From the NCBI GenBank assembly GCA_017506865.1, contig JAFCMP010000235.1:1042896-1106895 (forward strand): a stretch of DNA of 64,000 nucleotides. Direction: 5' to 3'. The notes under the pieces were generated by a model that saw only the letters and a program-made list of their open reading frames with translations, was not told the origin of the DNA and did not search any database. The stretch comes from Tribonema minus. Taxonomy: Eukaryota; Sar; Xanthophyceae; Tribonematales; Tribonemataceae. The position numbers were made by a program, and so were the translations under genes. Positions 23,518 through 61,792 of this stretch are shown here, piece by piece; within the stretch, counting starts at the first letter, position 1; the number at the start of each line of letters is the position of its first letter.

Positions 23518-25392
23518 TCAATCATTTGTGAGCTTTAGGAGCATAACTCCATGTGTGTGTCTCAGCAACCGCTGCATGTGTGTGGCCCGCTGGTTGCAAT
23601 CATGCTTACACTCTACAATGTCATCTGCATGCACGAGCCTTGATACCTGGTTTAATGTACGCCTGTGAACCACTCTGTTTGCGGTGCTGGGCAACCGCCA
23701 CCTGGGCAAGCACAGGCAACAGTGTCTGGAGCAGCTTGGCCTGGTTGACCGCGTGGCTGGAGCAGGGCGACGACCTGTGAAAGATGACGCCACCACCGGT
23801 GCCACCGCTATTGGCAGCTCGCCATCAACGTTAACAGCAGCACTGAGTGGCATGCAGCCATCTTTGGAGGCGTCGTTTACACTCACGGCAGCTAGGTAAC
23901 CGCTGCAGCACTTTGTCAGGAATGCCTTTGAGGACGCCAGTCGTGAGTTTGGCAAACATTGCTTTGCCCAGTCTTTTACCAGGTTCTGTGTTTTCTCTAT
24001 GAAGCCACTTTGGATGCAGGACTGCTGTGGGCAGGCATCAGTGGTGCGACGCTGTGCGCATGTTAGCCCCACGTACAGCGCCCTCAGGTCTGAGAACGTG
24101 CAATGAGGTGACCCCAACACAGCCTTTGCAGCTGCATTGGAGGTCTTGCAGAAACATGAGTTAACGTCCTTGCAAGGAGTCGTGGATGACATTGGTTTCA
24201 GTTGCCGCAGCCTGTGCAACGCCGCCAGGAATAATCTGGGCTCACATAGAAGAGGCAACGGTGCTGCGGTGCCACCGGCAGTGGTAGCTGATGAAAATAC
24301 GTTGAAAACGATGCATGAACATATGCTGGTGCTGTGCGGTGTAGAAGTGAAAGTGCCGGTTGCAAGTAGTTCAGATAAGCTTCTCCCGGACATGAATGCC
24401 AGTGCGCAGGCCAATTCAGATACCTTCGGCCTAGGATATTTCACGATTGCCAACATGTCGCACATAATCTCGTTGACTGCTGGTGGTCCTGGTGCTTTGC
24501 TCAACACTTGCTGCTGCTGCTGCTGCTGTGCTGTGCTTGAATCTATGTGCGCTGCAGCAGGCAGGTGCATAGAGCTGGAGCTGGAGCTGGGGCGGCATGA
24601 AACACTTTGCCGCTGAGCAGCACTGCGCAATGTGTCATCATGTAAGCCAGGTATAGCAACTCTGATATTAGATGACACTGATTGGGCCTGACACTGTGCC
24701 TGCACTTGTGTGCTAGGTAGCTCGTTGCGCCGCACAGCCGTGTGCTGGGCCACTTTGCAGTTCGCTTCACGTGAGGTATGGGCAGCATAAGTTTGCACAG
24801 GCAGGCTATAGCGTGCTGTTTGTGTCACTTCTTGGTTGTGCACTTCAGCGCCCGCCTGCGGCGTAGCACAGCCAGTGAGTACCTTTTCATTTGCTGAAAT
24901 CTGCTGTGGTAGTTGCACCACGTTTGATCCAGCTTGACGCTCGGGCGGCCTGAGCTCTGTAACATAGGCTGGTTGCCGCACGAGGACAGCAAGCACGCCA
25001 TCCACAGACACACTACCAGTGTACGAGTGTGCCGCAGTTTTATGTAAGCTGCCACTGACCTTGAGCTCGTACTGGCTGGAGAAGCTAAGGGAGTCAAATT
25101 CAGCAGTGCGTGCTTTGACGTGTTCCGCCCATACCCTCTCCTCATTGCTCTTGGCTAGACATATCATGCGCTCTGCGTGCTGGACAGCCTGTTCCAGTCC
25201 TGCCTTGTATGCATCACCACGTTTCACAACGCTGTCACCATATTTTCTGCGCCACAGGCTTCTGATATGAGCGAGGTCGTCAGAGAGGGCCTCAGGGTGC
25301 AGCTGCTCTAACCACCTTACTACCGCGTAGGGGCTCCTGCGCTCATGGAGCCATATGGTGAGCTTGTGGATGAGTGTACTTGTGCACGGCAT
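23518..25392 (-). CDS. telomere-resolvase-like protein, copy 1 (3' frameshifted)
   Basis: 624 residues as read. The N-terminal 150 residues are charged and helical, with no motif recognised. The middle (about 150-310) is Ser/Gln-rich with a poly-Gln run. Residues 315-450 carry ELACALAFMSGRSLSELLATG (Arg box around R337), APLPLLCEPRLFLAALHRLR and TFSDLRALYVGL (R437). These follow the order of motifs in telomere resolvases and parallel the neighbouring recombinase. The lysine after the Arg box and a clear LGH...Y tail are missing, so it may be a non-catalytic partner. A one-base deletion near 23,775 relative to copy 2 shifts the last roughly 75 residues into an unrelated frame. It starts at an ATG shared with copy 2 and is divergent from the recombinase. 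Confidence 0.6.
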   Translation of the reverse strand: MPCTSTLIHKLTIWLHERRSPYAVVRWLEQLHPEALSDDLAHIRSLWRRKYGDSVVKRGDAYKAGLEQAVQHAERMICLAKSNEERVWAEHVKARTAEFDSLSFSSQYELKVSGSLHKTAAHSYTGSVSVDGVLAVLVRQPAYVTELRPPERQAGSNVVQLPQQISANEKVLTGCATPQAGAEVHNQEVTQTARYSLPVQTYAAHTSREANCKVAQHTAVRRNELPSTQVQAQCQAQSVSSNIRVAIPGLHDDTLRSAAQRQSVSCRPSSSSSSMHLPAAAHIDSSTAQQQQQQQVLSKAPGPPAVNEIMCDMLAIVKYPRPKVSELACALAFMSGRSLSELLATGTFTSTPHSTSICSCIVFNVFSSATTAGGTAAPLPLLCEPRLFLAALHRLRQLKPMSSTTPCKDVNSCFCKTSNAAAKAVLGSPHCTFSDLRALYVGLTCAQRRTTDACPQQSCIQSGFIEKTQNLVKDWAKQCLPNSRLASSKAFLTKCCSGYLAAVSVNDASKDGCMPLSAAVNVDGELPIAVAPVVASSFTGRRPAPATRSTRPSCSRHCCLCLPRWRLPSTANRVVHRRTLNQVSRLVHADDIVECKHDCNQRATHMQRLLRHTHGVMLLKLTND

Positions 25393-26110
25393 GGTGCCTA
25401 AAGCGTGGTATGTTTAAGGCAGTATATAATATTTGCCTGGCAGTGGTCATTGCACCACCTGTGCACGTTTCGTATTCTTTTATCAGTCAATGCGTGAGTT
25501 GGGTAGTGCAATGTTTTCTTCATATGGCTGAATACGCACAAAATTATCTTTGATTATTAGTACTGCTACAATAAAAAATACTGCTCGTTAGCACCGAGAG
25601 GTGCGGCAGCACTCGCGGTGGCGCTGATGGTGGCGAGGGTGCATCAGGCAGCAAGGGGATGGGAGATGCTGGCTGTGAGCAGGAGCTGCGGAGTCGCGTG
25701 TGGTGAGGATACGGCTTTGGGCAGCAGCAGGGGATATTGGAACATGGGGATACGGATAGCATCAGGGCACACTGTAGATCGTTTGCTTGAACACGCAAGA
25801 AAGAGAACCTCGGCCAGGCACGTCAGCGGCGTGCTTAGGCAAGGAATCGAGGACCGGGCGCCTCTGGCCCAAATGTATACTAGAGGCATAACCGCGGTCC
25901 TCCGGCGTTTTCGCTCAAGAGATGGAGACATCGGCTACGATAGGTGTGGCTCAGACTGGGTGCCGCTGTGTCTGCCCCCCATGAGTCTAGTACAAGCCTG
26001 CAACGCAGGGCTCTAAGGGCCCGTCCGATTTTAGTTTTTTGCATTCTTATCCAACGCATCAAGCCCACCTTGGGGCTGCTATAAATACAAGATCATAAGT
26101 ACTGCTACAG
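25393..26110. promoter_or_regulatory. divergent intergenic region, copy 1, split by a SINE-like insertion
   Basis: This spacer separates the divergent starts of the two recombinase-like genes, and in copy 2 the same spacer is only 176 bp. The sequence near 25,424 (GTATATAATATT) is the only TATA-like motif. The 527-bp insertion at 25,571-26,097 moves the recombinase start away from the shared spacer, so a promoter placed here would be separated from one of the genes. Confidence 0.4.
25571..26097 (+). mobile_element. SINE-like retroposon, copy A
   Basis: The insertion is flanked by a perfect 12-bp target duplication AGTACTGCTACA (25,559-25,570 and 26,098-26,109). The empty site is preserved in copy 2 of the host element near 59,870. 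Apart from the first few bases it is essentially identical to 35,270-35,790. Its 3' end has a small hairpin (AGCCCACCTTGGGGCT) followed by TATAAATACAAGATCATA. Variable 5' ends and variable-length duplications indicate target-primed reverse transcription. It contains an open frame of 132 codons (25,618-26,016) of unknown meaning, with no RT. The partner LINE is not in the window. Confidence 0.8.
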
Positions 26111-27205
26111 ATGCCTTCAACAAAGCTAACGTATGGCGTGGACCACTGGCGAGTGACTCCAGTAGTCGCTTTTGCCATGAAGCGATGTAGGAGGGTGGAT
26201 CTGCACGGCCCATGCGATGCGAGGGGATACTTGCTTGAGGTGATGGCAGCGTGTTGTGATTGGATTGCCAGCGAGGACACATATAGAGAACGGTGTGCTG
26301 CTGCTGTTGGTGCGCATAAGGAGACCCTTCTGGCTGCTCGCAAACCGCTCAGCTCAAATAGCCTGGCCGCTGTTCTCACCAGCGTACGTGTAGCACTGAG
26401 AGGGCTTGCGTGGGGTGACTCGTTTAGGTGCCCTCTACTCGCTCATCGAAACATCACAAGGCAAGATGAGAGCTACAAGGTTAAAGGTGGGCGTGGGTAT
26501 TTCATAATGAACTTTGGGCACGTAATGCAGTGGGCTGCAGCTACCGTAGATTCGCTAATGACAACAGAGAAGGAACGTTTTGTGGCTTTGGGTTTAGTTT
26601 CGGGTATGCGCGGGGCTGAGCTGAGGGACCCTGCATACTCAGTGAGCCATGGAGGCGCCGGCCACTTCATTACCAGCGAGCGCGCCAAGGGTGGGCAGGC
26701 GAACCATCGAGCACCATTGTGGTGTGACTTTGCCAGGTTTGAGAAGGGACTTGCGCTCTTGCGCTGCCGCTCTCCTCACGAGCTGAACAACATGCAGCGC
26801 AAGCTAGACCTGGAGAAAGTACCTGCACTCCAAACCATAGCAAACCTTTATCGCAAGCACTTTGGTGTAGCCATGACTCCGCACAAGATCAGGCAGATCT
26901 ATGCAGCATACTGCTTCCACCACGAGTACGGACACCTGCGCCTGGAGTTTCAAGCACAGTACACCAATGCCATCAAAGCATATCTGGGGCATAGATCTGA
27001 GCGATCGTCATCTAGGTATGAGTTCATGAAGCACAGCCCAACGATGGCTGCTGGAACGTTCAATTGGCTATCAGAAGGTGATAATCACGCACCAGCTGAC
27101 CCTATACATCAGATGAAAGTGATCTCAGATGCGCTGGCACAGCCTGGCAGACATGAAGGTGGACGTCATACTGAAAGCGCTTGCAAACATGAAGGTCATA
27201 GTTGA
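26111..27205 (+). CDS. tyrosine recombinase, telomere-resolvase-like, copy 1
   Basis: 364 residues. Catalytic positions visible: R167 in LVSGMRGAELRDP, K193 in FITSERAKGG, R261 in TPHKIRQIYAAYCF (with H258), H294 in YLGHRSERSSSRY, and Y303. The H-to-Y distance of 9 is common to tyrosine recombinases. The R-to-H distance of 33 is longer than in Cre-type enzymes (about 23) and equals what I recall for the phage telomere resolvase TelK. Such enzymes cut and rejoin DNA through a 3'-phosphotyrosine. Resolvases make hairpin ends, while integrases move DNA. The gene is intact here and in copy 2 (about 95 percent identical by eye, all catalytic residues kept), so it is probably functional. Start: first ATG after the insertion, conserved in copy 2. 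Alternative: an ordinary Crypton-type recombinase. Confidence 0.75.
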   Translation: MPSTKLTYGVDHWRVTPVVAFAMKRCRRVDLHGPCDARGYLLEVMAACCDWIASEDTYRERCAAAVGAHKETLLAARKPLSSNSLAAVLTSVRVALRGLAWGDSFRCPLLAHRNITRQDESYKVKGGRGYFIMNFGHVMQWAAATVDSLMTTEKERFVALGLVSGMRGAELRDPAYSVSHGGAGHFITSERAKGGQANHRAPLWCDFARFEKGLALLRCRSPHELNNMQRKLDLEKVPALQTIANLYRKHFGVAMTPHKIRQIYAAYCFHHEYGHLRLEFQAQYTNAIKAYLGHRSERSSSRYEFMKHSPTMAAGTFNWLSEGDNHAPADPIHQMKVISDALAQPGRHEGGRHTESACKHEGHS

Positions 27206-27352
27206 GCAGCATAGGTCATGATGACCATGAGAAGTGCATGTGCATGTCTATGCTGGCCACACGCTTCCATGTTGAATGACGGTTGGCAGGCGCCTTCAAG
27301 TTGCAAGCACCAGAGGTGTAAGGCGCTGACAAGATTTTGCATTGCACGGTGA

Positions 27353-27782
27353 GGATCCGCTCCGCTCATCCGCGACCCTGAAAGCCAAGAAGCAACCGAG
27401 GCGCTTGTCCAGTAGTAAAGTCTCCAGGACAGAACTGGTATTGAAGTTGGGTTATGGCATGCTGTAGCCCTATGTCAGGGCATCTGCCGACTACTCGCTT
27501 GTTGAAGTTGATATTGATCCTGATGTGGTATTGAACTTCAACGGTGATATTCAAACTTCAACTTCATGCTAACTTCAACTGTCATATCACTGCTCAACGT
27601 GCAATAGCATGGCTCCACCAATCTCAACTTCAACAACCAAGAGCTCTTCTGGTGCGTCTGAGTGAGGCCAACAACCTTCTATTATCTCACTTCAACAGTT
27701 TGAGGGTCTTGACTGACCTCACTATAGCATAAGTGCTCGGTTGCTTTTTGGGTTTCAGGGTCGCGGATGGGCGGAGCGGATC
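27353..27782. mobile_element. 430-bp TIR element (MITE-like), copy 1
   Basis: Ends GGATCCGCTCCGCTCATCC and, inverted, GATCCGCTCCGCCCATCC; similarity between the ends extends for about 47 bp. The interior is densely packed with CAACTTCAAC/GTTGAAGTTG motifs. A near-identical copy lies at 32,901-33,331. Both are absent from the matching positions of element copy 2, giving empty sites. No coding capacity. The target-site duplication is not clear. Confidence 0.8.
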
Positions 27783-28540
27783 ACCGTGCCATTGTCGCTG
27801 CAGATCAAACCACCTACAGCAAGTACTGGAAGTGCTTACGCCCATGTGACGTGTACATGTGATGTGTACTGGCTACCTTGTACATGTGTACACTTGATGC
27901 CTGTGCATGATCTGCTTTTCCTGTGCCTGTGCTGGCTGACTCGGAGTGCCTCGCCCTCATGTTGCTGCCACAGCTGATCGTAGCAGACAACCCTGTGTAT
28001 TGCACTATGACGGTGGTGGCACGAAAGACATTTGTGTGCCGCGTATGCAACGCACTGATGGTGTCTTGCTGTGTTTCTTCCTTCCACTACGTGCAGGGGC
28101 ACAAGCGTCTTATCGTAACGAGCAGGACGTGTGCCCTATCTGAGTCGAGCACGGCACAGCATGTGGCGGCGCTGCAAGATCAGGCTTGTGACAATCGGGC
28201 CGTGCTTGCCATGGATGATCTTTGTACAATGTTTACACCGCAGCTGGCTTGCTGTGTGGCTGGGGCGGCAACTCAAAGGAGCCCATGCAAGTGCTGGAGT
28301 GGGACGACATGATTGAAAGAGCACACTTTGCAGTACCGGATGCGATGAGGGGTCGGCATAGGACCTCATTTACCAGGCCACCCGCAACCAATGAAGGTCA
28401 AAGTTGCTTTATACCGACCTGTGTCACGTCTCGTGCCTCGTTTGAGTGTTTGCTATGACTGGACGTTGCACGACGCAAGGGTGAGGCGGTGCAAGTGTGG
28501 CCTGGGGGCTGCCACATGGCATTGCTCGGGTAGGCGTTCG
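27783..28540. other. conserved spacer between recombinase and primase-helicase, copy 1
   Basis: Clearly homologous to 57,875-58,600 in copy 2. Two overlapping frames stay open in both copies. One, at 28,131-28,316 (61 codons; 62 in copy 2 at 58,099-58,287), ends at the same stop (SAGVGRHD) and tolerates a 3-base indel. I recognise no domain and cannot tell a short gene from a conserved untranslated or regulatory segment. Confidence 0.35.
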
Positions 28541-28862
28541 AGGGGGAAATTTTCCTAGTGGATAGGAAAACTGAGATTGGCTTTTACGTGCTTTTTGCAG
28601 CCACTGACCTCCTTAAGGCCCACACTTACTTGTGCAGAATAGGAAAATAGGAGAAATAGGAGAAAAATGAAATTCTACTATGAAGCCGCACAGATGTGCA
28701 GAGGGCAAGTAGCATCCTGTAGTAGATTTTCTAGTTTTTCCTATTTTGCCTGATTTTCCTATCCTGGGTTTTTGTACCGGTGGCCCTGAGGAGGGTGAGT
28801 GCAGTGCAGGCCACATTTAAGCCCGTTTCGATTTTCCTCTCATGAGGGGATATTTTCCCCTC
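28541..28862. promoter_or_regulatory. quasi-palindromic module A, downstream of primase-helicase, copy 1
   Basis: About 320 bp. The left end is a hairpin (TTTTCCTAGTGGATAGGAAAA stem) and the right end is another (CCTCTCATGAGGGG). The interior has two inverted arms sharing GATAGGAAAATAGGAGAAAT-type sequence facing each other around CTACTA. It is homologous, in the same orientation, to module B on the other side of the gene. The position about 230 bp after the stop and its occurrence in both element copies suggest a functional role (origin, recombination site, promoter or terminator), but a captured foldback element cannot be excluded. Confidence 0.6.
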
Positions 28863-29091
28863 ATCACATTTGACAAGCATGCAGACATTGCATGTTAAAG
28901 GCAGCACAAGCGGGCAAGTATATAGTATTCCATTGTCATACTTTGGAAGGGGGTATTACTAAGCAGGCAAGCACGTTAGCGCCCATTAATTATCAAGCCT
29001 GAAGGCCACTTGAACAAGCAAGTGAGCAGGCAAAAACATGGCAATGAAGGGGATGCAGGTTTGCAAGATCATCATGGCGCACTTGCATTCA

Positions 29092-31962
29092 CTAGAAGCC
29101 GCCCGCAGACTTGAGCCCGGCGTACACGCATTTGAAATTGTACTGACTGTGCGCCTTCCTGTAGTCGTCTATCTTGGCAAACCCCTTGGCCGCCATCTGC
29201 TCGTGCATGTCGCGTTTCTTGATTGGCGGTAGCGCCGGCTCCCGGCGCGCGCGGTAGTTGTTGTAACCGCTGAACGCGCTGCTGCACAAGATGAGCGCCG
29301 GATCGACGCCCTCCCTGGGTCCCAGCTCACACTCGTCGTTGATCCAGCTTTGCAGCGTGTCGTTTTCGGCGGCAAAAGCGTCGCATGCCAGCTTGCAGCA
29401 AGCCGGTTGCTCCCCCAGCCCACCCTCGTACCACCTCTTGGCCGCCTGCACCACCACTGCCAGGAACGCCTCCACGGGCAGGTTTTCGCGCAGTTTGGTG
29501 TTCTTGATGAAGTGTGTCTTATCATTGGCGTCATAGGGGAGCTTGGCATCCCCGGGCATGCGAAACTTGGCATCGCAGGGGATGATCTCAATGCGTTGCA
29601 TTATCGCCGGCTCCGCCTTGATGACTGGCATCTCGTTGGTGTTGGCCCACGGAACTGCCGTTGGGCTAAACGACGTCTGCGTGCCAAACAGCTCTCGCCC
29701 CGAGATGTCGGCACCGCCGCTGATGTACTTGATCATCTGCGCGTCTAACGCAACGCCCGCCGGTAGCTCGTCGAGGTGGACCACGCGCGCACCGCGTAGC
29801 GCCATCATGTGCGAAGACGCGGCACCCGCCGACACCGCCTTGCATGCCGTCAGAAAGCTCTGCGGCGCCTGGTAGAACATGCAGCCGAGAACCTGCTGCA
29901 GCAGGCTCTCGATGATGCCCTTGCCGTTGCGCGCGCTGCGGCCTAGAAGGAATACGATGATCTCCTCGCGCACGTGGCCCGTGATGGAGTAACCCAGTAT
30001 GCGCAGCAGACGCTCCAGCAGCGCTGGGCGGTTGAGGCGATTCGGCGCGGCGAGGGTGATGTCGGTCAGAAGCTGCATAACTTTAGGGATGCGCGGCGAG
30101 TCAGCATTGTAGTCGATGTTAACTGCACGGGTCAGCATGTCCTTCCGCACGCGCGGGCAAAGCGTGGCAGTGGCCAGCTCCACCACGCCGTTTTGGCAGC
30201 TGAAGATGTCCTTGTTGACGTCGAGTAGCTTTTCAAAATCCTCGTCGCGTACGGTGCTGAATACGTCCTTCAGGATGGACTCGCGCTTGCTCGTGCCCTT
30301 GATGCTCTCTTTGATGGCAAAGAGGGAGGCCGCTTTGGCCTCCAAATCTCTTAGCTCCTCGTCCGCCTCCTCGTCCTCTTCCTCTGCCCTACTGCGTGTG
30401 CGAGCAGCGGCACGCGCCGCCTCCAGGTGCGGCTCCAGGTTCTGTAGTCGCGGTTCGACATAGGCGGCCACCAGCTTGGGTATCTCGGTGCAGCGCACGA
30501 AACTGTTGTAGCGCGGCTTCCACAGCGCCGTCTTTTCGCAGTAGATAATGAAACGCGCCTTGTCGCCGTCGCCGCCGATGTTTTTGACGTCGTGGCCGCG
30601 CAGCTTGGCAAACAGCCTGGCGAGCCCGTTGTCACCACCGAAGAGCAGGTCCTCTTCGGTCTCCCAGCGCTCCAGGTACAAGCACTTCCCGGTGGAGCAG
30701 CATTTGTACTTGAGCCCGTGATAGCACTCGATAAGCAATGCGTCGTCGCTGTGGCCACTGCCGGCACATTCGGGCACAAGGCACACCCTAGCATCAGTGC
30801 CGGGGCTCACCTCCCGCCATGAGATGGTGCCGGGCCTGATGCCGGCAATCTGCTGCAGCTGCAGCTCCCCCCCCGCCGCCTCGTAGATGTGCTGCACATC
30901 TGCAGTGGTGAGTTTGTTGGTGTAGTGCTCCGCTGCAGCGGCCAGCGCTACCGCGCCGGCACTGCGGCGCGTGCGCTTGGCACCACGCCGCTGCACAATG
31001 ACCGGCTCCTTGCCCGCGCGCCATTGCAGCTTCGCGGTGCTCTCGTCATGGTGCAGGATGGATTTGGCGCGCAGCAGCTCAGCGAAGGAGAGGTCGTGCA
31101 AGTCGCCTCCGCTGTAGTACTGAAGGCCGTCACCGCCCATCACTGCCACTGTGTTGTAGCCGCCGTGCTGCTGCTGTTTCTCCTTGACCGCGCCGTGCAG
31201 CATAGTGCCGTTGTTCTGGTAGATGCACGGGTCGATGATCTGCATCTCGTGTGCCTCCTTGTCGTCCAGCCACTCCTCGTGCCCCCATGCGCTGTAGCGG
31301 TCGTTCATGAGCTGCCTAACGCCCAGCATGTCCTTGTGTGTGCACTTGATGTCGCTGCACGTTATCTTCAAGCCGTGCTTCCACATGCCTGCAACTGTCG
31401 GCGTGGGCGCGCCCTTGGCGTCTACGAAGAAGCGCGAGGCGCCGCTGATACCGGTGCACTCGTGCACCACGTCCCACAGCGTTTTGCAGAACTTGTGGGC
31501 GATGGCGGGGGTGAGGGCAAGTGGATGGTCTGCATTATAAGGTACTTCCACGTCAATGTCGAAACGCAGGCGCGTCTCTGCATCGTCCGGTAGCCTGCAG
31601 ATGTTCTCCATCAGCACAAAGGGCGAGCCGCAGCGGTGCAGGTCCTCAATGATGTCGGTGAAGAAGGTCTCGCGCACATCGGCATCAGTCTCATAGTTGG
31701 GCACGTCGAACACTCCGCGCATGTCATCCATGCCGTTGTGCGACCCCTTGATGCCCTGGCCGGAAGGCACGCGGTACTGCTGCATCTTCTGCCTCGCGTA
31801 ACTGGTGTTGCGCTTGGGCGAGGGGCGGCCCGGGGGTGCACATGGAGCAGCTGGTGCAGCAGTCGGCGGGGTGGCAAGCGGCATAGGCGGCTCTTCAGGG
31901 GGCTCCTCATCATCAATAAAGCCATTCTCCGCCGCTCGCAGGTCAAGGTCGTCGATGTCCAT
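29092..31962 (-). CDS. primase-SF3 helicase fusion (herpes/pox-type primase, D5-like helicase), copy 1, intact
   Basis: 956 residues. An acidic/Pro-rich N-terminus is followed by an archaeo-eukaryotic primase domain: RFDIDVEV (134-140, metal-binding DxD), HGLKITCSDIKCTH (196-209) and IIDPCIY (242-248). A Cys/His cluster at about 392-432 (CLVPECAGSGH...C-H...KCCSTGKC) looks like the primase zinc element. After a charged linker, the C-terminal helicase has Walker A GRSARNGKG (about 673), Walker B VVHLDE (about 727) and motif C PWANTNEMP (about 770). Such fusions start DNA synthesis and unwind DNA during replication of NCLDVs, virophage-like elements and related plasmids. This implies the element replicates its own DNA. 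Copy 2 is 95 percent or more identical but frameshifted. The ATG lies about 59 bp from module B. Confidence 0.9.
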   Translation of the reverse strand: MDIDDLDLRAAENGFIDDEEPPEEPPMPLATPPTAAPAAPCAPPGRPSPKRNTSYARQKMQQYRVPSGQGIKGSHNGMDDMRGVFDVPNYETDADVRETFFTDIIEDLHRCGSPFVLMENICRLPDDAETRLRFDIDVEVPYNADHPLALTPAIAHKFCKTLWDVVHECTGISGASRFFVDAKGAPTPTVAGMWKHGLKITCSDIKCTHKDMLGVRQLMNDRYSAWGHEEWLDDKEAHEMQIIDPCIYQNNGTMLHGAVKEKQQQHGGYNTVAVMGGDGLQYYSGGDLHDLSFAELLRAKSILHHDESTAKLQWRAGKEPVIVQRRGAKRTRRSAGAVALAAAAEHYTNKLTTADVQHIYEAAGGELQLQQIAGIRPGTISWREVSPGTDARVCLVPECAGSGHSDDALLIECYHGLKYKCCSTGKCLYLERWETEEDLLFGGDNGLARLFAKLRGHDVKNIGGDGDKARFIIYCEKTALWKPRYNSFVRCTEIPKLVAAYVEPRLQNLEPHLEAARAAARTRSRAEEEDEEADEELRDLEAKAASLFAIKESIKGTSKRESILKDVFSTVRDEDFEKLLDVNKDIFSCQNGVVELATATLCPRVRKDMLTRAVNIDYNADSPRIPKVMQLLTDITLAAPNRLNRPALLERLLRILGYSITGHVREEIIVFLLGRSARNGKGIIESLLQQVLGCMFYQAPQSFLTACKAVSAGAASSHMMALRGARVVHLDELPAGVALDAQMIKYISGGADISGRELFGTQTSFSPTAVPWANTNEMPVIKAEPAIMQRIEIIPCDAKFRMPGDAKLPYDANDKTHFIKNTKLRENLPVEAFLAVVVQAAKRWYEGGLGEQPACCKLACDAFAAENDTLQSWINDECELGPREGVDPALILCSSAFSGYNNYRARREPALPPIKKRDMHEQMAAKGFAKIDDYRKAHSQYNFKCVYAGLKSAGGF

Positions 31963-32020
31963 GCCTGCTTTTGAATGAGGGCAACAAAAAAAATGTGTTT
32001 GAGATGACGTGACCAGTTTG

Positions 32021-32432
32021 ATGGGAAAACTTTCCTATCGGATAGGAAAAGTTAAATGGGCTTAAGTGCGTGTCTTGCAATCACTGGCCTCCCGAAGCAC
32101 TATTTCTGGGTATGCATGATAGGAAAATAGGAGAAATAGGAAAAACATGAAATTCTACTATGGGGCCGCACCGACTGCTCAACGGTGCCTGTCGCAGTGC
32201 GCAGACTAGGCTGCTGCGTTGACGCAAGCTTTTCGATTGCATAGGCAACCCGGCCTCCCTTGGACCTTTATAAATACAAGTCCATACGTACCTGTAGGAA
32301 ATTTTCTAATTTTTCCTATTTCTCCTGATTCTCCTATCTTGGGATTTTAACTTGGGGCCGTGAGGAGGGGGAGTGTAATTCAAACCAGGCTCAAGCCCAT
32401 TTTGCTTTTCCCCTTGAGAGGGGATTTTTTCC
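32021..32432. promoter_or_regulatory. quasi-palindromic module B, upstream of primase-helicase, copy 1
   Basis: Homologous to module A and in the same orientation. The outer end carries the near-perfect palindrome TTTCCTATCGGATAGGAAA (about 32,030-32,049), and the other end has CCCCTTGAGAGGGG. The arms mirror each other: GGGCTTAAG and GATAGGAAAATAGGAGAAAT on the left, CTCAAGCCC and ATTTCTCCTGATTCTCCTATC on the right. The centre was disrupted by an 89-bp insertion. Lying about 59 bp from the helicase ATG, it must contain or overlap that promoter. Confidence 0.6.
32199..32287 (+). mobile_element. short stem-loop retroposon in module B
   Basis: About 89 bp present in copy 1 and absent from copy 2, where GTCACAGTACCTGTAGG is continuous. 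Its end (GGCCTCCCTTGGACC then TATAAATACAAG) matches the 3' end of the SINE-like element. It therefore looks like a short relative or a 5'-truncated copy. The target duplication is at most a few bases. Confidence 0.6.
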
Positions 32433-34138: not shown

Positions 34139-34185
<47 letters not shown>

Positions 34186-52489: not shown

Positions 52490-52639
52490 AAGGATTATTG
52501 GCGCCATTTCCGGAGCAACTGCTGTGCCCTAAAGCCAGAGCAGCAGCATCACATCCACTCAACAGCATAGCCGCCAGAGCCAGGGACTAGGTTTACACAG
52601 GGATCGCCAGCTATTCTCTGCATACTGCCACTCGCCCCC

Positions 52640-53300
52640 CGCAATCGTCATCGCTAGCACAACCACCAGCAGCAGTAGCGCAGCAGCAGCAGCAGCGCAG
52701 CAAAGACAGTAGCAGCAGCAGGCACGGCACCAGCACACCACAAGTCAACCGTTACCTCGGCGCAACAGACCACCACCACCAGCAGCAGCAGCAGCAGCCA
52801 GGGAGCAGCAGCAACAGTAGCAACTCAGGCGATCTAGCGGAATAGGCGAGCAACACGCAGGCAAGTGCGCACTGTTGCAAACTCTGTAGTATGTCCTGGG
52901 TAATCGGTACTGGTACAGCATAGCCGAGCAACGCCTGTAGCAGCAGCAGCAGGAGCAACCCAAACAACACACCAGGCGTGCAGTCGTAAGCACGGTGTGC
53001 TTTGTATCGTTGGCAATCGAGGCAGTAGCAGCAGCACCGCCAGCAGCAACTGACATTAACGACAACTGACATCAGACGGTATTGCGCCAATGGTATACCG
53101 CACGCAATGTAAAATATCACGCGACCAAGCGCAGTGGTACATCTGATACGAAACACCGCACACCACCAGCACCAGCAATAACAGCAGCAGCCTGAGCACC
53201 AGAAGGAGCAGCAGCAGCTGCTACTTACAGCAGCTGCTGCAGAAGCGGCCGCCGCAACAGCAGCAGCTGCTGCAAACGGTAGCAGTAGCACCAGCACTGA
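52640..53300. repeat. CAG-rich tail of element copy 2
   Basis: Short CAG/AGC runs lie at about 52,660-52,720, 52,770-52,815, 52,936-52,955, 53,025-53,045 and 53,175-53,290, corresponding to the CTG tracts of copy 1 but shorter. No gene. Confidence 0.7.
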
Positions 53301-54090
53301 TAGCAGCAGCATGAATGAAGTGCAGCAGCGGAGATATGCCCTATGGATGCAGAGCAGCTGACACTCACAGCGGTCCAATGTTTAGAACACAGTTCAGCGG
53401 TTGCATTTGCCATAGCCATATGTGCATTATTTCACATCCAGTGGTTTAGAAGCACGCTGCAAACTCATTGGCAAGCATGCACTCATGAATCATGCATGTC
53501 GTGTATGCACTTCAGAAACAGTACTTTGCTCTACCAGAGTCATCGTCTACCAGAGTCATTGTCACAAACTAAAAACGCTCTGTGGGTACGCTTACGAGCA
53601 TGGTGGGGAATGTCACAACGACCACCTGCGTTTGCCACCACCAGCCAACGGTGCAGGGTGTCACTGAGTCTATGTGGTGCTGCTGCAACTAAGTGTGCGC
53701 ACGGTAAACTCAAGGAGTTGACGGTTCCAATGCCCACTTCCACTGTTGCGTCATTGCCACTGTTGTATTCTGGGAGAATCCTGCACCTCGGCAGCTAGGC
53801 TTGCAGAGTCTGTGGTGGTGATTGGTGTGTGTGACAAAGCCGGCGTGAATAAGGGTGTAACGCCCCTGAACTCCTGGCAAGCAGTGTGCACTGCAAGGTG
53901 CATGGCCGGCAGCAGCTGTGCACAAGTACCTAGCCTCGCGCCGCACACAGGACGCCAGTGGGCTGCATATTTTGATAGCAAGACATGTACAGACGTAAGC
54001 CCTCAGGCTGCAAAACCATCGCGTATGCCTCTATGCGAACGACTGGAGTGCTGGACCGCTGCTGGCAGTCTGTGAGACATTATATAGGGC
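53301..54090. other. conserved tail of the element, copy 2
   Basis: Aligns with 32,433-33,500 of copy 1 minus the MITE. No frame is conserved throughout. Confidence 0.4.
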
Positions 54091-54416
54091 GAGGGGGGAA
54101 AATCCCCTCGCAAGGGGAAAAGAAAAAATGGGCTTGAGCCTGGTTTGCATTACACTCACCCTCCTCACGGCCCCAAGTTAAAATCCCAAGATAGGAGAAT
54201 CAGGAGAAATGGGAAAAATTAGAAAATCTCCTACAGGTACTGTGACAGGCGCCGTTAAGCAGTCGGTGCGGCCCCATAGTAGAATTTCATTTTTTTCCTA
54301 TTTCTCCTATTTTCCTATCATGCATACCCAGAATTAGTGCTTCAGGAGGCCAGTGATTGCAAGACACGCACTTAAGCCCATTTTACTTTTCCTATCCGAT
54401 AGGAAAGTTTTCCCAT
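54091..54416. promoter_or_regulatory. quasi-palindromic module B, copy 2
   Basis: Uninterrupted version of the module at 32,021-32,432. It has CCCCTCGCAAGGGG at the outer end, facing arms with ATAGGAGAATCAGGAGAAAT and ATTTCTCCTATTTTCCTATC, and the palindrome CTTTTCCTATCCGATAGGAAAG at the gene-proximal end, about 58 bp from the helicase ATG. Confidence 0.6.
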
Positions 54417-54474
54417 CAAACTGATCACGTCATCTCAACCACATTTTTTTTGTTGCCCTCATTCAAAAGCAGGC

Positions 54475-57344
54475 ATGGACATCGACGACTTTGACCTGCG
54501 AGCAGCGGAGAATGGCTTTATTGATGATGAGGAGCCCCCTGAAGAGCCGCCTATGCCGCTTGCCACCCCGCCGGCTGCTGCACCAGCTGCTCCATGTGCA
54601 CCCCCGGGCCGCCCCTCGCCCAAGCGCAACACCAGCTACGCGAGGCAGAAGATGCAGCAGTACCGCGTGCCTTCCGGCCAGGGCATCAAGGGGTCGCACA
54701 ACGGCATGGATGACATGCGCGGAGTGTTCGACGTGCCCAACTATGAGACTGATGCCGATGTGCGCGAGACCTTCTTCACCGACATCATTGAGGACCTGCA
54801 CCGCTGCGGCTCGCCCTTTGTGCTGATGGAGAACATCTGCAGGCTACCGGAAGATGCAGAGACGCGCCTGCGTTTCGACATTGACGTGGAAGTACCTTAT
54901 AACGCCGACCATCCACTTGCCCTCACCGCCGCCGTCGCCCACAAGTTCTGCAAGACGCTGTGGGACGTGTTGCACGAGTGCACCGGCATCAGCGGCGCCT
55001 CGCGCTTCTTCGTAGACGCCAAGGGCGCGCCCACGCCGACAGTTGCAGGCATGTGGAAGCACGGCTTGAAGATTACGTGCAGCGACATCAAGTGCACACA
55101 CAAGGACATGCTGGGCGTTAGGCAGCTCATGAACGACCGCTACAGCGCGTGGGGGCACGAGGAGTGGCTGGACGGCAAGGAGGCGCACGAGATGCAGATC
55201 ATCGACCCGTGCATCTACGAGAACAACGGCACTATGCTGCACGGCGCGGTCAAGGAGAAACAGCAGCAGCACGGCGGCTACAGCACGGTGGCAGTGATGG
55301 GCGGTGACGACCTTCAGTACTACAGCGGGGGCGACTTGCACGACCTCTCCTTCGCTGAGCTGCTGCGCGCCAAATCCATCCTGCACCATGACGAGAGCAC
55401 CGCGAAACTGCAATGGCGCGCGGGCAAGGAGCCGGTCATTGTGCAGCGGCGTGGTGCCAAGCGCACGCGCCGCAGTGCCGGCGCGGTAGCGCTGGCCGCT
55501 GCAGCGGAGCACTACACCAACAAACTCACCACTGCAGATGTGCAGCACATCTACGAGGCGGCAGGGGGGGAGCTGCAGCTGCAGCAGATTGCCGGCATCA
55601 GGGCCGGCACCATCTCATGGCGGGAGGTGAGCCCCGGCACTGATGCTAGGGTGTGCCTTGTGCCCAAATGTGCCGGCAGTGGCCACAGCGACAACGCATT
55701 GCTTATCGAGTGCTATCACGGGCTCAAGTACAAGTGCTGCTCCACCGGGAAGTGCTTGTACCTGGAGCGCTGGGAGACCGAAGAGGACCTGCTCTTCGGT
55801 GGTGACAACGGGCTCGCCAGGCTGTTTGCCAAGCTGCGCAGCCACGACGTCAAGAACATTGGCGGCGACGGCGACAAGGCGCGATTCATCATCTACTGCG
55901 AAAAGACGGCGCTGTGGAAGCCGCGCTACAACAGTTTCGTGCGCTGCACCGAGATACCCAAGCTGGTGGCCGCCTACGTCGATCCGCAACTACAGGATCT
56001 GGAGCCGCACCTGGAGGCGGCGCGTGCCGCTGCTCGCACACGCAGTAGGGCAGAGGAAGAGGATGAGGAGGCGGACGAGGACCTAACAGTTTTGGAGGCC
56101 AAAGCGGCCTCCCTCTTTGCCATCAAAGAGAGCATCAAGGGCACGAGCAAGCGCGAGGCCATCTTGAAGGACGTATTCAGCACCGTACGCGACGAGGATT
56201 TCGAAAAGCTACTCGACGTCAACAAGGACATCTTCAGCTGCGAAAACGGCGTGGTGGAGCTGGCCACTGCCACGCTTCGCCCACGCGTGCGGAAGGACAT
56301 GCTGACCCGTGCCGTCAACATTGACTACAATGCTGACTCGCCGCGCATCCCCGAAGTTATGCAGCTTCTGACCGACATCACCCTCGCCGCGCCGAATCGC
56401 CTCAACCGCCCAGCGCTGCTGGAGCGCCTGCTGCGCATACTGGGCTACTCCATCACGGGCCACGTGCGCGAGGAGATCATTGTATTCCTTCTCGGCCGCA
56501 GCGCGCGCAATGGCAAGGGCATCATCGAGAGCCTGCTGCAGCAGGTTCTCGGCTGCATGTTCTACCAGGCGCCGCAAAGCTTTCTGACGGCATGCAAGGC
56601 GGTGTCGGCGGGTGCCGCGTCATCGCACATGATGGCGCTACGTGGTGCACGCGTGGTCCACCTCGACGAGCTGCCGGCGGGTGTTGCGTTGGACGCGCAG
56701 ATGATTAAGTACATCAGCGGCGGTGCCGACATCTCGGGGCGAGAGCTGTTTGGCACGCAGACGTCGTTTAGCCCAACCGCAGTTCCGTGGGCCAACACCA
56801 ACGAGATGCCAATCATCAAGGCGGAGCCGGCGATATTGCAACGCATTGAAATCATCCCCTGCGATGCAAAGTTTCGCACGCCCGGGGATGCCAAGTTCCC
56901 CTACGATGCCAATGATAAGACACACTTCATCAAGAACACCAAACTGCGCGAACACCTGCCCGTAGAGGCGTTCCTGGCGGTGGTGTGCAGGCGGCCAAGA
57001 GGTGGTACGAGGGTGGGCTGGGGGAGAAACCGGCTTGCTGCAAGCTGGCATGCGACGCTTTCGCCGCTGACAACGACACGCTACAAAGCTGGATTAACGA
57101 CGAGTGCGAGCTCGGATCCAGGGAGGGCGCCGATCCGGCACTCATCTTGTGTAGCAGCGCGTTCAGCGGTTACAACAATTACCGTGCGCGCCAGGAGCCA
57201 GCGCTACCGCCAATCAAGAAACGTGACATGCACGAGCAGATGGCGGCCAAGGGTTTTGCCAAGATAGATGACTACAGGAAGGCGCACAGCCAGTACAATC
57301 TCAAATGCGTGTACGCCGGGCTCAAGTCTGCGGGCGGATACTAG
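54475..57344 (+). pseudogene. primase-SF3 helicase, copy 2, frameshifted near the 3' end
   Basis: Reads as the copy 1 protein for about 837 codons, with all primase and helicase motifs (FDIDVEV, GRSARNGKG, VVHLDE, PWANTNEMP). At about 56,983 one G is missing from a GTGGTGGTG run, and the frame runs into unrelated sequence to 57,267. The true C-terminus continues in the next frame (AAKRWYEGGLGEKPACCKLA) to a stop at 57,344. The catalytic core would still be made. The lost part is the C-terminal domain of about 115 residues, so function is doubtful. Confidence 0.88.
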
Positions 57345-57564
57345 TGAATGCACGCGCGCCATGATGATCTTACATACAAATCTGCGTCTCCTTTGCCATG
57401 TTTTCGCCTGCTAGCCTGCTTGGGCAAGTGGCCCTCAGGCATGGTAATGGACTGCTTGCGTGCTTGCCTGCTTATCCCTTAAACGATGACAATGGATACT
57501 ATATAATACCGCGCGCTTGTGCTGCCTCTGAACATGCAATGTCTGCATGCTAGTCATGTGTGCC

Positions 57565-57872
57565 GAGGGGAAAGTTTCCCCTCATGAGGGGGAAATCGAA
57601 ATGAGCTTAAACGTGGCCTGCACTCCACTCACCCTCCTCAGGGGTACTGGTACAAAGCCCAGGATAGGAAAAACAGGCAAAATAGGAAAAATTAGAAAAT
57701 CTACTGCAGCATGCTACTTGCCCTCTGCACATAGTAGAATTTCTTTTTTTTTCCTATTTCTCCTATTTTCCTATTCTGCACATGTAAGTGTGGGCCTTCA
57801 GGAGGTCAGTGGCTGCAAAGAGCATGTATAAGAGAATCTAACTTTTCCTATCCAGTAGGACAATTTCCTCTC
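57565..57872. promoter_or_regulatory. quasi-palindromic module A, copy 2
   Basis: Begins with the near-perfect palindrome TTTCCCCTCATGAGGGGGAAA (one base extra) and ends with TTTTCCTATCCAGTAGGACAA. The interior arms share TAGGAAAAACAGGCAAAATA and TTTCTCCTATTTTCCTAT. About 220 bp downstream of the helicase stop, as in copy 1. Confidence 0.6.
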
Positions 57873-58766
57873 GAATGCCCACCCGCGTGGTGCCATGTGG
57901 CAGCCCCCGGGCCGCACTTGCACCGCCTCACCCATGCGCCGTGTAACAGCCAGTCATAGCAAACACTCAAACGAGGCAAGAGGCGTGACACAGGTATCGG
58001 CATAAAGCAACTTCGAACTTCATTTGGTTGCGGGTGGGCTGGTAAATGAGGTCCCATGCCGACCCCTCATCGCATCCGGTATTCCAAGCGTGCTCTTTTC
58101 AATCATGCCGTCCCACTCCAGCACTTGCATTAGCTCCTTCGAGTCGCCGCCCCAGCCACACAGCAAGCCAGCTGCGGTGTAAACATCGCGCAAAGATTGC
58201 CCATGGCAAGCACTGCCCGATTGTCATTAGCCTGATGTTGCAGCGCCGCCACATGATGCTGTGCCGTGCTCGATTCAGGTGGGGCACACAGCCCGCTCGT
58301 CAAGATAAGACCCTTGTGCGCCTGCGCGTAGTGGAAGGAAGAAGCACAGCAAGACACCATCAGTGCGTCGCATAATCGGCACACAATGTATTATGTGCCA
58401 CCACCATCATAGTGCAATACACAGGGTTGTCTGCTACAATCAGCTGCAGCATGAGGGCGAGGCACTCCGAGTCAGCCAGCACAGGCACAGGAAAGGCAGA
58501 ACATGCACAGGCATCAGGTGTACACATGTACAATGTAGCCAGTACACATCACGTGTACACAGCACATGGGCGTAAGCACCTCCAGTACTTGCTGTAGGTG
58601 ATTCGATCTGCAGCCACATGGCACCATGCAAATCTTGTCAGCGCCTTACACCTCTGGTGCTTGTAAGGCACCTGCCAACTGTCATCTAATAAGAAATTGG
58701 AGCACCATACTGTGCGATGGCCTGCGCGTGGCCATCATAGACATGCACATGCACTTCTCATAGTCA
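57873..58766. other. conserved spacer, copy 2
   Basis: Aligns with the copy 1 spacer at 27,206-28,540 without the MITE. Carries the 62-codon frame 58,099-58,287 (minus), which ends GVGRHD as in copy 1. No domain recognised. Confidence 0.35.
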
Positions 58767-59867
58767 TCATGACCTATGCTGCTCAACTATGACCTTCATC
58801 TTTGCAAGCACTTTCAATATGACGTCCACCTTCATGTCCGCCAGCGCGTCTGAGATCACTTGCATCTGATGTATAAGGTCAGCTGGTGCGCGGTTATCAC
58901 CTGCTGATAACCAGTTGAATGTTCCAGCAGCCATCGTTGGGCTGTGCTTCATGAACTCATACCTAGACGACGATCGCTCAGATCTATGCCCCAAATATGC
59001 TTTAATGGCATTGGTGTACTGTGCTTGAAACTCCAGGCGCAGGTGTCCGTACTCGTGTTGGAAGCAGTATGCTGCATAGATCTGCCTGATCTTGTGCGGA
59101 GTCATGGCTACACCAAAGTGCTTGCGATACAGGTTTGCTATGGTTTGAAGCGCAGGTACTTTCTCCAGGTCTAGCTTGCGCTGCATGTTGTTCAGCTCGT
59201 GAGGAGAGCGGCGGTGCAAGAGCGCAAGTCCCTTCTGAAACCTGGCAAAGTCACACCACAACGGTGCGCAATGGTTCGCCTGCCCACCCTTGGCGCGCTC
59301 GCTGGTAATGAAGTGGCCGGCCCCTCCATGGGTGACTGTGTATGCAGGGTCCCTCAGCTCAGCCCCGCGCATACCCGAAACTAAACCCAAAGCCACAACA
59401 CATTCCTTCTCTGTTGTCACTAGCGAATCTACGGTAGCTGCAGCCCACTGCATTACGTGCTCAAAATTCATTATGAAATACCCACGCTTTCCTCTATTCT
59501 TGTAGCTCTCATCTTGCCTTGTGATGTTTCGATTAGCAAGTAGAGGGCATCTAAACGAGTCACCCCACGCATGCCCTCTCAGTGCTACACGGACGCTGGT
59601 GAGAACAGCGGCCAGGCTATTCGAGCTGAGCGGTCTGCGAGCAGCGAGGAGGGTCTCCTTATACGCACCAACAGCAGCGGCACAACGTTCTCTATATGTG
59701 TCCTCGCTGGCAATCCAATCACAACACGCTGCCATCACCTCAAGCAAGTATCCCCTTGCATCGCATGGGCCGTGCAGATCCACCCTCCTACATCGCTTCA
59801 TGGCAAAAGCGACTACTGGAGTCACTCGCCAATGGTCCACGCCATACGTTAGCTTTGTCGCAGGCAT
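58767..59867 (-). CDS. tyrosine recombinase, telomere-resolvase-like, copy 2, intact
   Basis: 366 residues, nearly identical to the protein at 26,111-27,205 but with a different last 20 residues or so. All five catalytic residues are kept (SGMRGAELRDP, SERAKGG, TPHKIRQIYA, YLGHRSERSSSRY). Substitutions elsewhere are mostly conservative, which suggests purifying selection while other genes of the element decayed. Its start lies 176 bp from the divergent resolvase-like gene. Confidence 0.75.
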   Translation of the reverse strand: MPATKLTYGVDHWRVTPVVAFAMKRCRRVDLHGPCDARGYLLEVMAACCDWIASEDTYRERCAAAVGAYKETLLAARRPLSSNSLAAVLTSVRVALRGHAWGDSFRCPLLANRNITRQDESYKNRGKRGYFIMNFEHVMQWAAATVDSLVTTEKECVVALGLVSGMRGAELRDPAYTVTHGGAGHFITSERAKGGQANHCAPLWCDFARFQKGLALLHRRSPHELNNMQRKLDLEKVPALQTIANLYRKHFGVAMTPHKIRQIYAAYCFQHEYGHLRLEFQAQYTNAIKAYLGHRSERSSSRYEFMKHSPTMAAGTFNWLSAGDNRAPADLIHQMQVISDALADMKVDVILKVLAKMKVIVEQHRS

Positions 59868-60043
59868 CTGTAGCAGTACTAGTGATCAAAGATAATTTTG
59901 TGCGTATCCAGCCATACGAAGAAAGCGTGGCACCGCTCAACTCATGTGCTGGCTGATCAAAGAACACGGAAGCACAGGTGGTGCAATGACCACTGCCAGG
60001 CAAATATTATATACTGCCTTAAACATACCACGCTCTAGGCACC
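59868..60043. promoter_or_regulatory. divergent intergenic region, copy 2 (uninterrupted)
   Basis: 176 bp between divergent ATGs. This is the ancestral state before the SINE-like insertion of copy 1. It contains ATATTATATACTGCC about 35 bp from the plus-strand ATG, the best TATA-like site. Confidence 0.45.
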
Positions 60044-61792
60044 ATGCCGTGCACAAGTACACTCATCCACAAGCTCACCACATGGCTCCATGAGCGAAGG
60101 AGCCCCTACGCGGTAGTAAGGTGGTTGGAGCAGGTGCACCCTGAGGCCCTCTCTGACGACCTCGCTCACATCAGAAGCCTGTGGCGCAGAACATACGGTA
60201 ACAGCGTTGTGAAGCGCGGTGATGAATACAAGGTAGGAATGGAACAGGCTGTCCGGCGCGCAGAGCGAATGATATGCCATGCCAAGAGCGATGAGGAGAG
60301 GGTATGGGCGGAACACGTAAAAGCACGCACTGGTGAATTTGACTCCCTAAGCTTCTCCAGCCAGTACGAGCTCAAGGTCAATGGCAGCTTACAGAAAAGC
60401 GCGGCACACTCGTACACTGGTAGTGTGTCTGTGGATGGATTGCTTGCTGTCCTCGTGCGGCAACCAGCCTTTGTTACAGAGCTCAGGCCGCCCATGCGTC
60501 AAGCTGGATCGAACGTGGCACAAATACCACAGCAGATTTCCGCAGATGAAAAGGTACTCACTGGCTGTGATACGCTCCAGGCGGGCGCTGAAGTGCACGA
60601 CCACGAAGTGACACAAACAGCACGCTGTAGCCTGCCTGTGCAAACTTGTGCTGCCCACACCTCACGTGAAGCGAACTGCAAAGTGGGCCCGCACATGGCT
60701 GTGCAGCGCAACGAGCCACCTAGCACACAAGTGCAGGCACAGTGTCAGGCGCAATCAGTATCATCTAATCACAGAGGTGCTATACCTGGCTTACATGATG
60801 ACACATTGTGCAGTGCTGCCCAGCGGCAAAGTGTTTCATGCCGCCTCAGCTCCAGCTCCAGCTCTATGCACCTGCCTGCTGCAGCGCACATAGATTCAAG
60901 CACAGCGCAGCAGCAGGTGTGGAGCACAGCACCAGGACTACCACCAGCTAACGAGCTGATGTGCGACATGTTGTCAATTGTAGAATATCCTAGGCCAAAG
61001 GTGTTTGAATTGGCATGCGCACTGGCATTCATGTCTGGGAGGAGCTTAGCTGAACTACTTGCAACTGGCACTTTCATTTCTACACCACACAGCACCCTTG
61101 AATGCCCATGCATCGTTTTCAAAGCATTGTCATCAGCTACTACTGCCAGTGGCACCGCAGCACCGTTGCCGCTTCTATGTGAGCCCAGCTTATTCCTGGC
61201 GACATTGCACAGGCTGCGGCAACTGAAACCAATATCATCCACGACTCCTTGCAAGGACATTAACTCATGTTTCTGCAAGACCTCTAATGCAGCCGCGAAG
61301 GCTGTATTGGGGTCACCACGTTGCGCATTCTCAGACCTGAGGGCGCTGTACGTGGGGCTAACGTGCGCCCAGCATTGCACCGCTGACGCCTGCCCACAGC
61401 AGTCCTGCACACAAACTGGCAGCATAGCGAAAACACATGACCTGGTAAAAGACTGGGCAAAGCAGTGCTTGCCAACCTCACGGCTGGCATACTCGAAGGC
61501 ATTCCTGACAAAGTGCTGCAGCGCTTACCTGGCTGCCATGAAGGTGAACAACAGCTCGAAGGATGGCTGCATGCCACTGAATGCTGCTGTTGACGTCGAT
61601 GGCGAGCTGCCAACAGTGGTGGCGGCGGTGGCGGCGCCGGCATTCACAGGTACGTCGCCTTGCTCCAGCCAAGAGGTGAATCAGGCCAAGCTCCTTCAGA
61701 CACTGTCGCCTGTGCTTGCCCAGCTGGCTGTGGCAAGGCATCACAAACAGAGTGCTGCAAAGGCATACATCAAACCAGTTGTGAAAAGATAA
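60044..61792 (+). CDS. telomere-resolvase-like protein, copy 2
   Basis: 582 residues, probably the native frame: it keeps the C-terminus (QAKLLQTLSPVLAQLAVARH) that copy 1 loses by a one-base deletion. Same layout: helical N-terminus, Ser/Gln-rich middle with a shorter Gln run, then ELACALAFMSGRSLAELLATG, APLPLLCEPSLFLATLHRLR and AFSDLRALYVGL. Cys/His residues after this (CAQHCTADACPQQSC) might bind zinc. No LGH...Y nucleophile motif is evident, so activity is uncertain. It may recognise element ends as a partner of the recombinase. Confidence 0.6.
   Translation: MPCTSTLIHKLTTWLHERRSPYAVVRWLEQVHPEALSDDLAHIRSLWRRTYGNSVVKRGDEYKVGMEQAVRRAERMICHAKSDEERVWAEHVKARTGEFDSLSFSSQYELKVNGSLQKSAAHSYTGSVSVDGLLAVLVRQPAFVTELRPPMRQAGSNVAQIPQQISADEKVLTGCDTLQAGAEVHDHEVTQTARCSLPVQTCAAHTSREANCKVGPHMAVQRNEPPSTQVQAQCQAQSVSSNHRGAIPGLHDDTLCSAAQRQSVSCRLSSSSSSMHLPAAAHIDSSTAQQQVWSTAPGLPPANELMCDMLSIVEYPRPKVFELACALAFMSGRSLAELLATGTFISTPHSTLECPCIVFKALSSATTASGTAAPLPLLCEPSLFLATLHRLRQLKPISSTTPCKDINSCFCKTSNAAAKAVLGSPRCAFSDLRALYVGLTCAQHCTADACPQQSCTQTGSIAKTHDLVKDWAKQCLPTSRLAYSKAFLTKCCSAYLAAMKVNNSSKDGCMPLNAAVDVDGELPTVVAAVAAPAFTGTSPCSSQEVNQAKLLQTLSPVLAQLAVARHHKQSAAKAYIKPVVKR

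Follow-up and report, generated by a model that had tools for sequence, protein, structure and literature searches.

The window analysed here, a 64,000-nucleotide stretch that forms the terminal part of contig C235 of Tribonema minus (GenBank JAFCMP010000235.1, positions 1,042,896 to 1,106,895), contains two copies that belong to a nuclear-genome family of DNA elements of roughly 17 kb. Both window copies encode, in identical order, a protelomerase-like protein (Rec2), a tyrosine recombinase (TR), and a primase-helicase. Our preferred reading, to which we give about an even chance, is that these elements are Crypton-like transposons or plasmids that move by site-specific recombination and are copied by their own primase-helicase. 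Eukaryotic elements with viral replicases usually possess capsid genes, and we know of no eukaryotic tyrosine-recombinase DNA transposon that carries a replication enzyme. An element that joins a recombinase with a giant-virus-type primase-helicase and a protelomerase-derived protein, and has no capsid, would be intermediate between Cryptons, plasmids, and giant viruses that integrate.

A preliminary description of the window, made from its sequence alone, reported two inverted copies sharing a gene order and placed them between positions 23,640 and 61,785. Comparison of the two arms (approximately 23,640–34,501 and 52,494–61,785) confirms the inverted pair, with 71–97% identity depending on the segment (97% in the primase, 71% on the CAG-rich side). 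The search for further copies that it recommended for defining the ends was made in the 158-Mb assembly of 554 contigs. A 2,747-bp primase segment identified 11 copies at 94–100% identity on seven contigs, and the TR protein identified 12 copies at 86% identity or more; in each search one copy was split in two. Two copies possess both ends, one on C379 (about 50,998–67,936; ~16.9 kb) and one on C179 (about 1,054,061–1,073,140; ~19.1 kb), the latter enlarged by insertions, including one with a hAT-like transposase. Because independent copies show these wider limits, the interval given earlier is cut too short to represent the element.

In a tree of the primases, copy 1 of the window groups with C235a and C179, and copy 2 with C226 and C353. 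Sequences from C226, C353, and the end of the window share about 99.5% identity and could represent haplotypes of a single locus, so independent loci would number fewer than copies. This likeness, and the fact that the window contig terminates in this repeat, could also indicate a segmental duplication or an assembly artefact rather than a mobile element. That explanation is very improbable, as copies in unlike flanks on several contigs end at the same motif, and C226 has arms with unlike flanks that are distinguished by a 525-bp insertion.

The right (R) end is common to window copy 1 (about 47,089), C235a, C179, C379, C150, and the two C334 copies, while the left (L) end is common to C379 (67,936), C179 (1,073,140), C50 (270,984), and both C226 arms. 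For the copy 2 type (C226, C353), similarity to other copies ceases close to the right side of that type, leaving it with no defined right end. Window copy 2 itself extends beyond position 64,000, where the contig stops, as seen in C226 at 99.5% identity. The pattern CTATATTTA, picked after inspection, occurs in six of six R junctions counted, from which C150 was left out because its R end abuts a TR-gene fragment of another copy behind a perfect 29-nt palindrome. All three L junctions counted (C379, C179, and C50) read TATAG-NNN-CTATA, with the mutually facing L ends of C226 left out of the count. The chance of finding CTATA that near a random point is 0.0017, for a pattern likewise picked after inspection, and CTATA is present at both junctions of C379 and of C179.

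A genome-wide scan located the motif ATATAGGSCCTATA in 11 places (18 strand matches), compared with one match for its reversed control. Eight places are at inspected element ends and one is separated from the C334 right end by an insertion of 2.6 kb; the remaining two (C150:29,510 and C141:16,287), whose surroundings were not fetched, have element genes within 2 kb. We rejected host target preference as the source of the motif, since all 11 places are on contigs with element parts nearby. Several copies have short inverted GAGTAAATATAGG-type ends plus palindromes, with palindromic TATAGG-S-CCTATA motifs at several ends. Exact palindromes with arms of at least 8 mark three R ends (window copy 1, C235a, and C150), the C179 L end, and the C226 joint. 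Among 12 perfect palindromes with arms of at least 10 in 334 kb of fetched DNA, six are at element ends, four in the 2.6-kb C334 insertion, one in DNA inserted in C179, and one at window position 8,525. An exact 19-nt palindrome pattern, GTATATAGGGCCTATATAC, was also tried and discarded; it matched in C226 only.

TR contains R167, K193, H258, R261, H294, and Y303, which we take, from the motif R-K-HxxR-H-Y, to be the catalytic residues of a tyrosine recombinase such as Cryptons encode. They are invariant across three divergent proteins, namely TR, a 46% identical metagenome relative, and a 24% identical frame on C92 that is the nearest other recombinase in the genome. The ratio of non-synonymous to synonymous substitutions (dN/dS) is 0.14–0.26 in nine of ten TR pairs; the tenth, copy 1 versus C179, has eight non-synonymous and zero synonymous changes. 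The copy 1 protein diverges from the others after residue ~344, beyond the active site. PF00589 gave a single sub-threshold match in the genome, and TR has no relative at E 1e-3 among the giant-virus loci of the same genome. Searches of TR and Rec2 returned nothing but weak unrelated matches in PDB and no match in phage DNA by tblastn, and scans of IMG/VR and GTDB with TR, Rec2, and the primase returned no relatives. A claim that the proteins lack relatives was nonetheless rejected, given metagenome relatives of TR (46%) and of the primase (72% and 60%) on short contigs. As a separate observation, the recombinase-like C92 frame (L029:4551-5912) bears the same catalytic residues.

The primase-helicase matches D5_N and AEP_C962R in Pfam and resembles structures of the African swine fever virus (ASFV) protein C962R (Table 1). 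It also matches the P4-family primase C-terminus (7e-31, marginally under the cut-off), and its one match in PADLOC is weak (0.004). The copy 2 frame deviates from that of copy 1 across the last ~90 residues, and dN/dS is 0.17 (one pair). A fourth gene, found in other copies, encodes a P-loop NTPase on the left arm, outside the interval first described. One exon contains a Walker-A-like GPRGAGKTS and matches AAA_16 below the cut-off (4e-5); a second has no Pfam match and a dN/dS of 0.39–0.53. The NTPase occurs at 13 loci at 64% identity or more, eight in known element copies and five not inspected (C544 twice, C141, C512, and C87), with more distant NTPase genes beyond these.

Rec2 was seen in the preliminary description as a second recombinase-like protein, and it is indeed present in both copies; its match to the protelomerase family had been missed, and several catalytic residues are absent. 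The second domain of Rec2 matches phrog_5272 (Table 1), the family to which TelN itself (3e-293) and the PY54 protelomerase (7e-241) belong, and hhalign aligns Rec2 to three protelomerases over 125 columns (probability 82, E 1e-5). Rec2 is thus homologous to the TelN/ResT catalytic domain and lacks the complete active site of a telomere resolvase. With residue roles presumed to be those of TelN, both Arg are conserved, Ser stands at the K380 position in all copies aligned, the His position is unmatched by eye, and the Tyr position, also placed by eye, is Tyr in one of five types (copy 2) and Ser in the rest. A role for Rec2 as a second active integrase was rejected on this motif loss. The dN/dS values are 0.24–0.40 for the N- and C-terminal domains, 0.83–1.17 for the linker, and 0.36–0.55 for the entire protein.

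Besides the element copies, 38 loci match the second domain of Rec2 at 33–51% identity (a manual count, from the 75 of 99 candidates that were scored). Two of them, on C181 and C223, are also strong telomere resolvases, to both of which Rec2 aligns at 33%. D5_N loci outside the element copies number five (C2, C171, C212, C532, and C534), and only that on C171 has a Rec2-like locus nearby, ~11 kb away. By these matches, Rec2-like genes are common outside the element, mostly without a recognised D5 gene. Neither the 38 loci, the NTPase gene, nor the CTATA and palindromic ends were part of the preliminary description.

No Pfam family for a capsid, packaging ATPase, protease, or polymerase B was matched in the frames scanned, from which spliced genes could escape, and within that scope the earlier statement that none is visible is borne out. 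Leaving aside the four genes and frames antisense to them, the longest frame of C379 encodes 143 residues, and frames outside the main genes of C379 and C226 have no Pfam match at 0.1 save one weak low-complexity match. Among the larger frames of C226, the C179 inserts, and C150, only a hAT dimerisation domain exceeds the cut-off. We ascribed to composition bias a sub-cut-off HEV_ORF1 match (4e-4) of a 114-residue frame from the CAG-rich region. The Pfam scan thus did not find the major capsid protein and packaging ATPase that mark Polintons and Polinton-like viruses (PLVs), with no PLV-specific capsid profile having been run. Together, these results support the description of a eukaryotic element that is present in multiple copies and whose tyrosine recombinase looks complete, with a viral-type primase-superfamily 3 (SF3) helicase, definable ends, low dN/dS in TR and the primase, and no capsid found.

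The genome itself contains giant-virus genes. Capsid genes of nucleocytoplasmic large DNA viruses (NCLDVs) gave ten matches on nine contigs (C40, C112, C179, C90, C21, C223, C144, C485, and C541), and PF16684 gave 52, of which 12 are strong (E 1.3e-17 or better). Strong resolvases on C179, C90, and C21 lie 43–57 kb from a capsid match, an arrangement to be expected of integrated giant viruses. The capsid genes and strong telomere resolvases (on C179, C90, C21, C112, C223, and others) are consistent with integrated xanthoviruses, and it is plausible that resident giant-virus telomere resolvases were the origin of the protelomerase-like protein. By these matches, the element genes do not lie with an NCLDV capsid gene in a large virus genome, as they would in a phaeovirus or xanthovirus. 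The preliminary description had named a larger capsid-bearing virus around its three genes as a finding that would overturn it; the partial test made here found only C179 with both a capsid match and an element, ~584 kb apart.

The elements could instead be decayed or satellite virus derivatives, either PLVs or fragments of an integrated xanthovirus that lost the capsid and are mobile only within the genome. The likeness of the primase-helicase to ASFV C962R, the capsid and resolvase genes of this genome, the alignment of Rec2 to the C181 and C223 resolvases, and the xanthovirus recombinases reported in Tribonema (PMC13236599) would all fit such an origin. We regard it as unlikely, because several capsid-free copies have identical ends and the same gene set, TR has no relative among the giant-virus loci at the threshold given above, and IMG/VR viral contigs yielded no relative of TR, Rec2, or the primase.

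Copies of the element also occur in inverted pairs. C226 is a palindromic contig with arms 99.1% identical and sister copies 99.7% identical in the primase; where its L ends join, end motifs form a ladder in which a perfect 45-nt palindrome, reaching past the short shared end sequence, appears twice. At this joint (C226:18,560-18,864), successive L-end copies become ever shorter, each finishing at TATAGGSCC. C334 has two inverted copies, both without L arms at the joint, which the primase tree joins as sisters (98.9%, support 0.93). An inverted pair is present in C150 too, where one of the two is partial. Sister pairs of this kind would fit a hairpin-ended linear replicon like N15, replicating as linear DNA whose ends are covalently closed. 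Head-to-head dimers would then be resolved at the palindromes by a telomere resolvase, either Rec2 itself or an enzyme from a resident giant virus, and TR would serve only for insertion into chromosomes. The TelN-family match of Rec2, the length of the C226 palindrome, the inverted sister copies at two loci (C226 and C334), and the proposal that phaeoviruses employ a resolvase at a telRL-like palindrome (PMC13236599) point in this direction. The Ser at the K380 position of Rec2, its His position unmatched by eye, and the Ser in place of Tyr in four of five types argue against it, and circle junctions would be equally palindromic, so this replicon seems to us an improbable explanation.

For the Crypton-like transposon or plasmid that we prefer, TR would excise the element as a circle in which the joined ends, of the type GAGTAAATATAGG-S-CCTATATTTACTC, form a near-palindromic att site. 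Reinsertion would occur by recombination at the CTATA core, as in Cryptons and temperate-virus integrases. The primase-helicase would copy the extrachromosomal form using a host polymerase, proposed because no polymerase was found in the element, and Rec2 would bind the palindromic ends, probably without cutting, because most of its active-site residues are missing. As the att site is nearly symmetric, the ends could be joined in either direction, which would yield head-to-head sister copies. Crypton-type circle integration is compatible with TR and the CTATA core, and the presence of a primase-helicase suggests copying of the excised form. The protelomerase-like protein and the palindromes hint at binding of the ends or at a hairpin phase, and a linear phase with hairpin ends is possible. 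Replication, circles, and hairpins are inferred. In favour of the model are the shared R and L junction patterns, the invariant catalytic residues of TR, low dN/dS in TR, the primase, and both Rec2 domains, the position of ATATAGGSCCTATA and of half the longer palindromes at element ends, and the inverted sister copies at C226 and C334.

Several observations weigh against this model. All library families score below their cut-offs for TR, which also gave no profile alignment to protelomerases, and the AlphaFold models of TR and of the Rec2 domain are unusable (predicted local distance difference test scores of 42 and 34). Six inspected ends (right ends of C179, C379, C334L, and C334R; left ends of C379 and C50) have no perfect palindrome of their own at arm 8. 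The window copies are inverted yet are not sisters in the primase tree, and C235b is a partial direct duplication instead of an inverted pair. No circle, empty allele, or expression was seen.

Like the Cryptons and CryptonS described in PMC3212892, the element appears as a tyrosine-recombinase DNA transposon of a stramenopile host, and the CTATA core compares with the 5–6 bp direct repeats regarded there as the CryptonS recombination core. It differs in carrying a primase-helicase, a protelomerase-like protein, and an NTPase, in its size of about 17 kb, and in its palindromic inverted ends, as Cryptons are described in the same paper as lacking terminal inverted repeats. Neither 'helicase' nor 'primase' appears as a word in its text (PMC3212892). 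Phaeovirus and xanthovirus genomes, as presented in PMC13236599, share a tyrosine recombinase, a telomere resolvase (proposed for phaeoviruses together with a telRL-like site), a palindromic site, and related algal hosts; Tribonema is placed there under Xanthophyceae, and phaeovirus-like recombinases are reported in it. Those genomes are giant, include structural genes, and insert at CC, whereas the element is ~17 kb long, has no capsid found, and has a degenerate Rec2. The element looks like a capsid-less combination of such recombinase and resolvase modules.

PLVs with tyrosine recombinases share with the element the recombinase, a primase/SF3-helicase type of replicase, and a eukaryotic setting, and are defined by capsid and packaging genes (PMC4642659, PMC12220804), none of which the scan of the element revealed. 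Plasmid-prophages with a protelomerase, phage N15 among them, resemble the element in having a TelN-family domain beside palindromic sites and inverted joints; unlike them, the element has a degenerate Rec2 active site, chromosomal integration, a separate recombinase, and a eukaryotic host. Among the open-access titles and abstract openings listed in literature searches, none describes an element with this gene set.

Tentatively, and with more doubt than confidence, we suggest that these elements represent a new eukaryotic class of capsid-less, self-replicating nuclear plasmid-transposons with integrated and extrachromosomal phases. Such elements would have palindromic telomere/att ends bound by a protelomerase-derived protein, would replicate through head-to-head dimers, and would be part of a wider protelomerase-like group (36 further Rec2-like loci beside the two strong resolvases). 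With defined ends, candidate att sites, and open genes, circles, hairpin ends, and dimer integration are directly testable in the host, for which transformation is reported (PMC7139823).

Table 1. Element copies, genes, and insertions located in the window.
Feature	Position	Strand	Evidence
Copy 1, left end truncated, L to R	22345..34872	+	Homology to C150 and C379 extends left to 22,345 and stops there; homology to C235a and C179 reaches the gypsy insertion
Rec2 copy 1, protelomerase-like, 624 aa; C-terminus diverges from other copies	23518..25392	-	phrog_5272 9e-10; PF16684 8e-4, below cut-off
525-bp repeat inserted between Rec2 and TR	25578..26102	.	100% identity to 35,271-35,795
TR copy 1, catalytic residues present; C-terminal tail deviates	26111..27205	+	Comparison with other copies
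MITE-like (miniature inverted-repeat transposable element) insertion, about 430 bp, inverted ends	27352..27782	.	Sequence comparison
AEP-D5 primase-helicase copy 1, 956 aa	29092..31962	-	D5_N 2e-9; AEP_C962R 7e-5; ASFV C962R structures 1e-10
Second copy of the 430-bp MITE-like insertion	32900..33330	.	Sequence comparison
Ty3/gypsy-like long terminal repeat (LTR) element interrupting copy 1, foreign to the element	34873..47037	+	LTR pair 99%; absent from the same site in C235a and C179
Copy 1 right terminus past the gypsy insertion	47038..47089	+	Continues C235a and C179 sequence across their uninterrupted site
Perfect 24-nt palindrome ATATAGGGCCTATAGGCCCTATAT, copy 1 right end	47062..47085	.	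Palindrome search
Copy 2, inverted; left arm leaves the contig	52494..64000	-	Comparison with other copies
Primase-helicase copy 2, 930 aa; frame deviates near C-terminus	54475..57267	+	Alignment, Pfam
TR copy 2, 366 aa	58767..59867	-	Alignment
Rec2 copy 2, 582 aa	60044..61792	+	phrog_5272 4e-10

Other sequences lie in or near the copies. The 525-bp repeat is 100% identical at three places, the two in the window given in Table 1 and C226:19,681-20,205, and for this reason was probably active recently. The 430-bp MITE-like repeat has inverted ends of ~30 nt, GGATCCGCTCCGCTCATCCGCGACCCTGAAA, with further copies in C379 and C334. A 2.6-kb segment with inverted ends at C334:531,390-534,010 has the same AGTAAATATAGGCCCTATAGCTAGCTAC on either flank, longer than a usual target duplication. 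Interstitial telomere-like repeats of the TTAGGG/AACCCT type occur at window positions 11,540–11,600 and 16,113–16,190. The Ty3/gypsy-like element contains, in an open reading frame at 37,853–40,639 on the plus strand, a C-5 cytosine DNA methyltransferase domain (PF00145, 1.4e-14); methyltransferase capture by such elements is published for dinoflagellates and charophytes (PMC5890265), and the host here is a xanthophyte.

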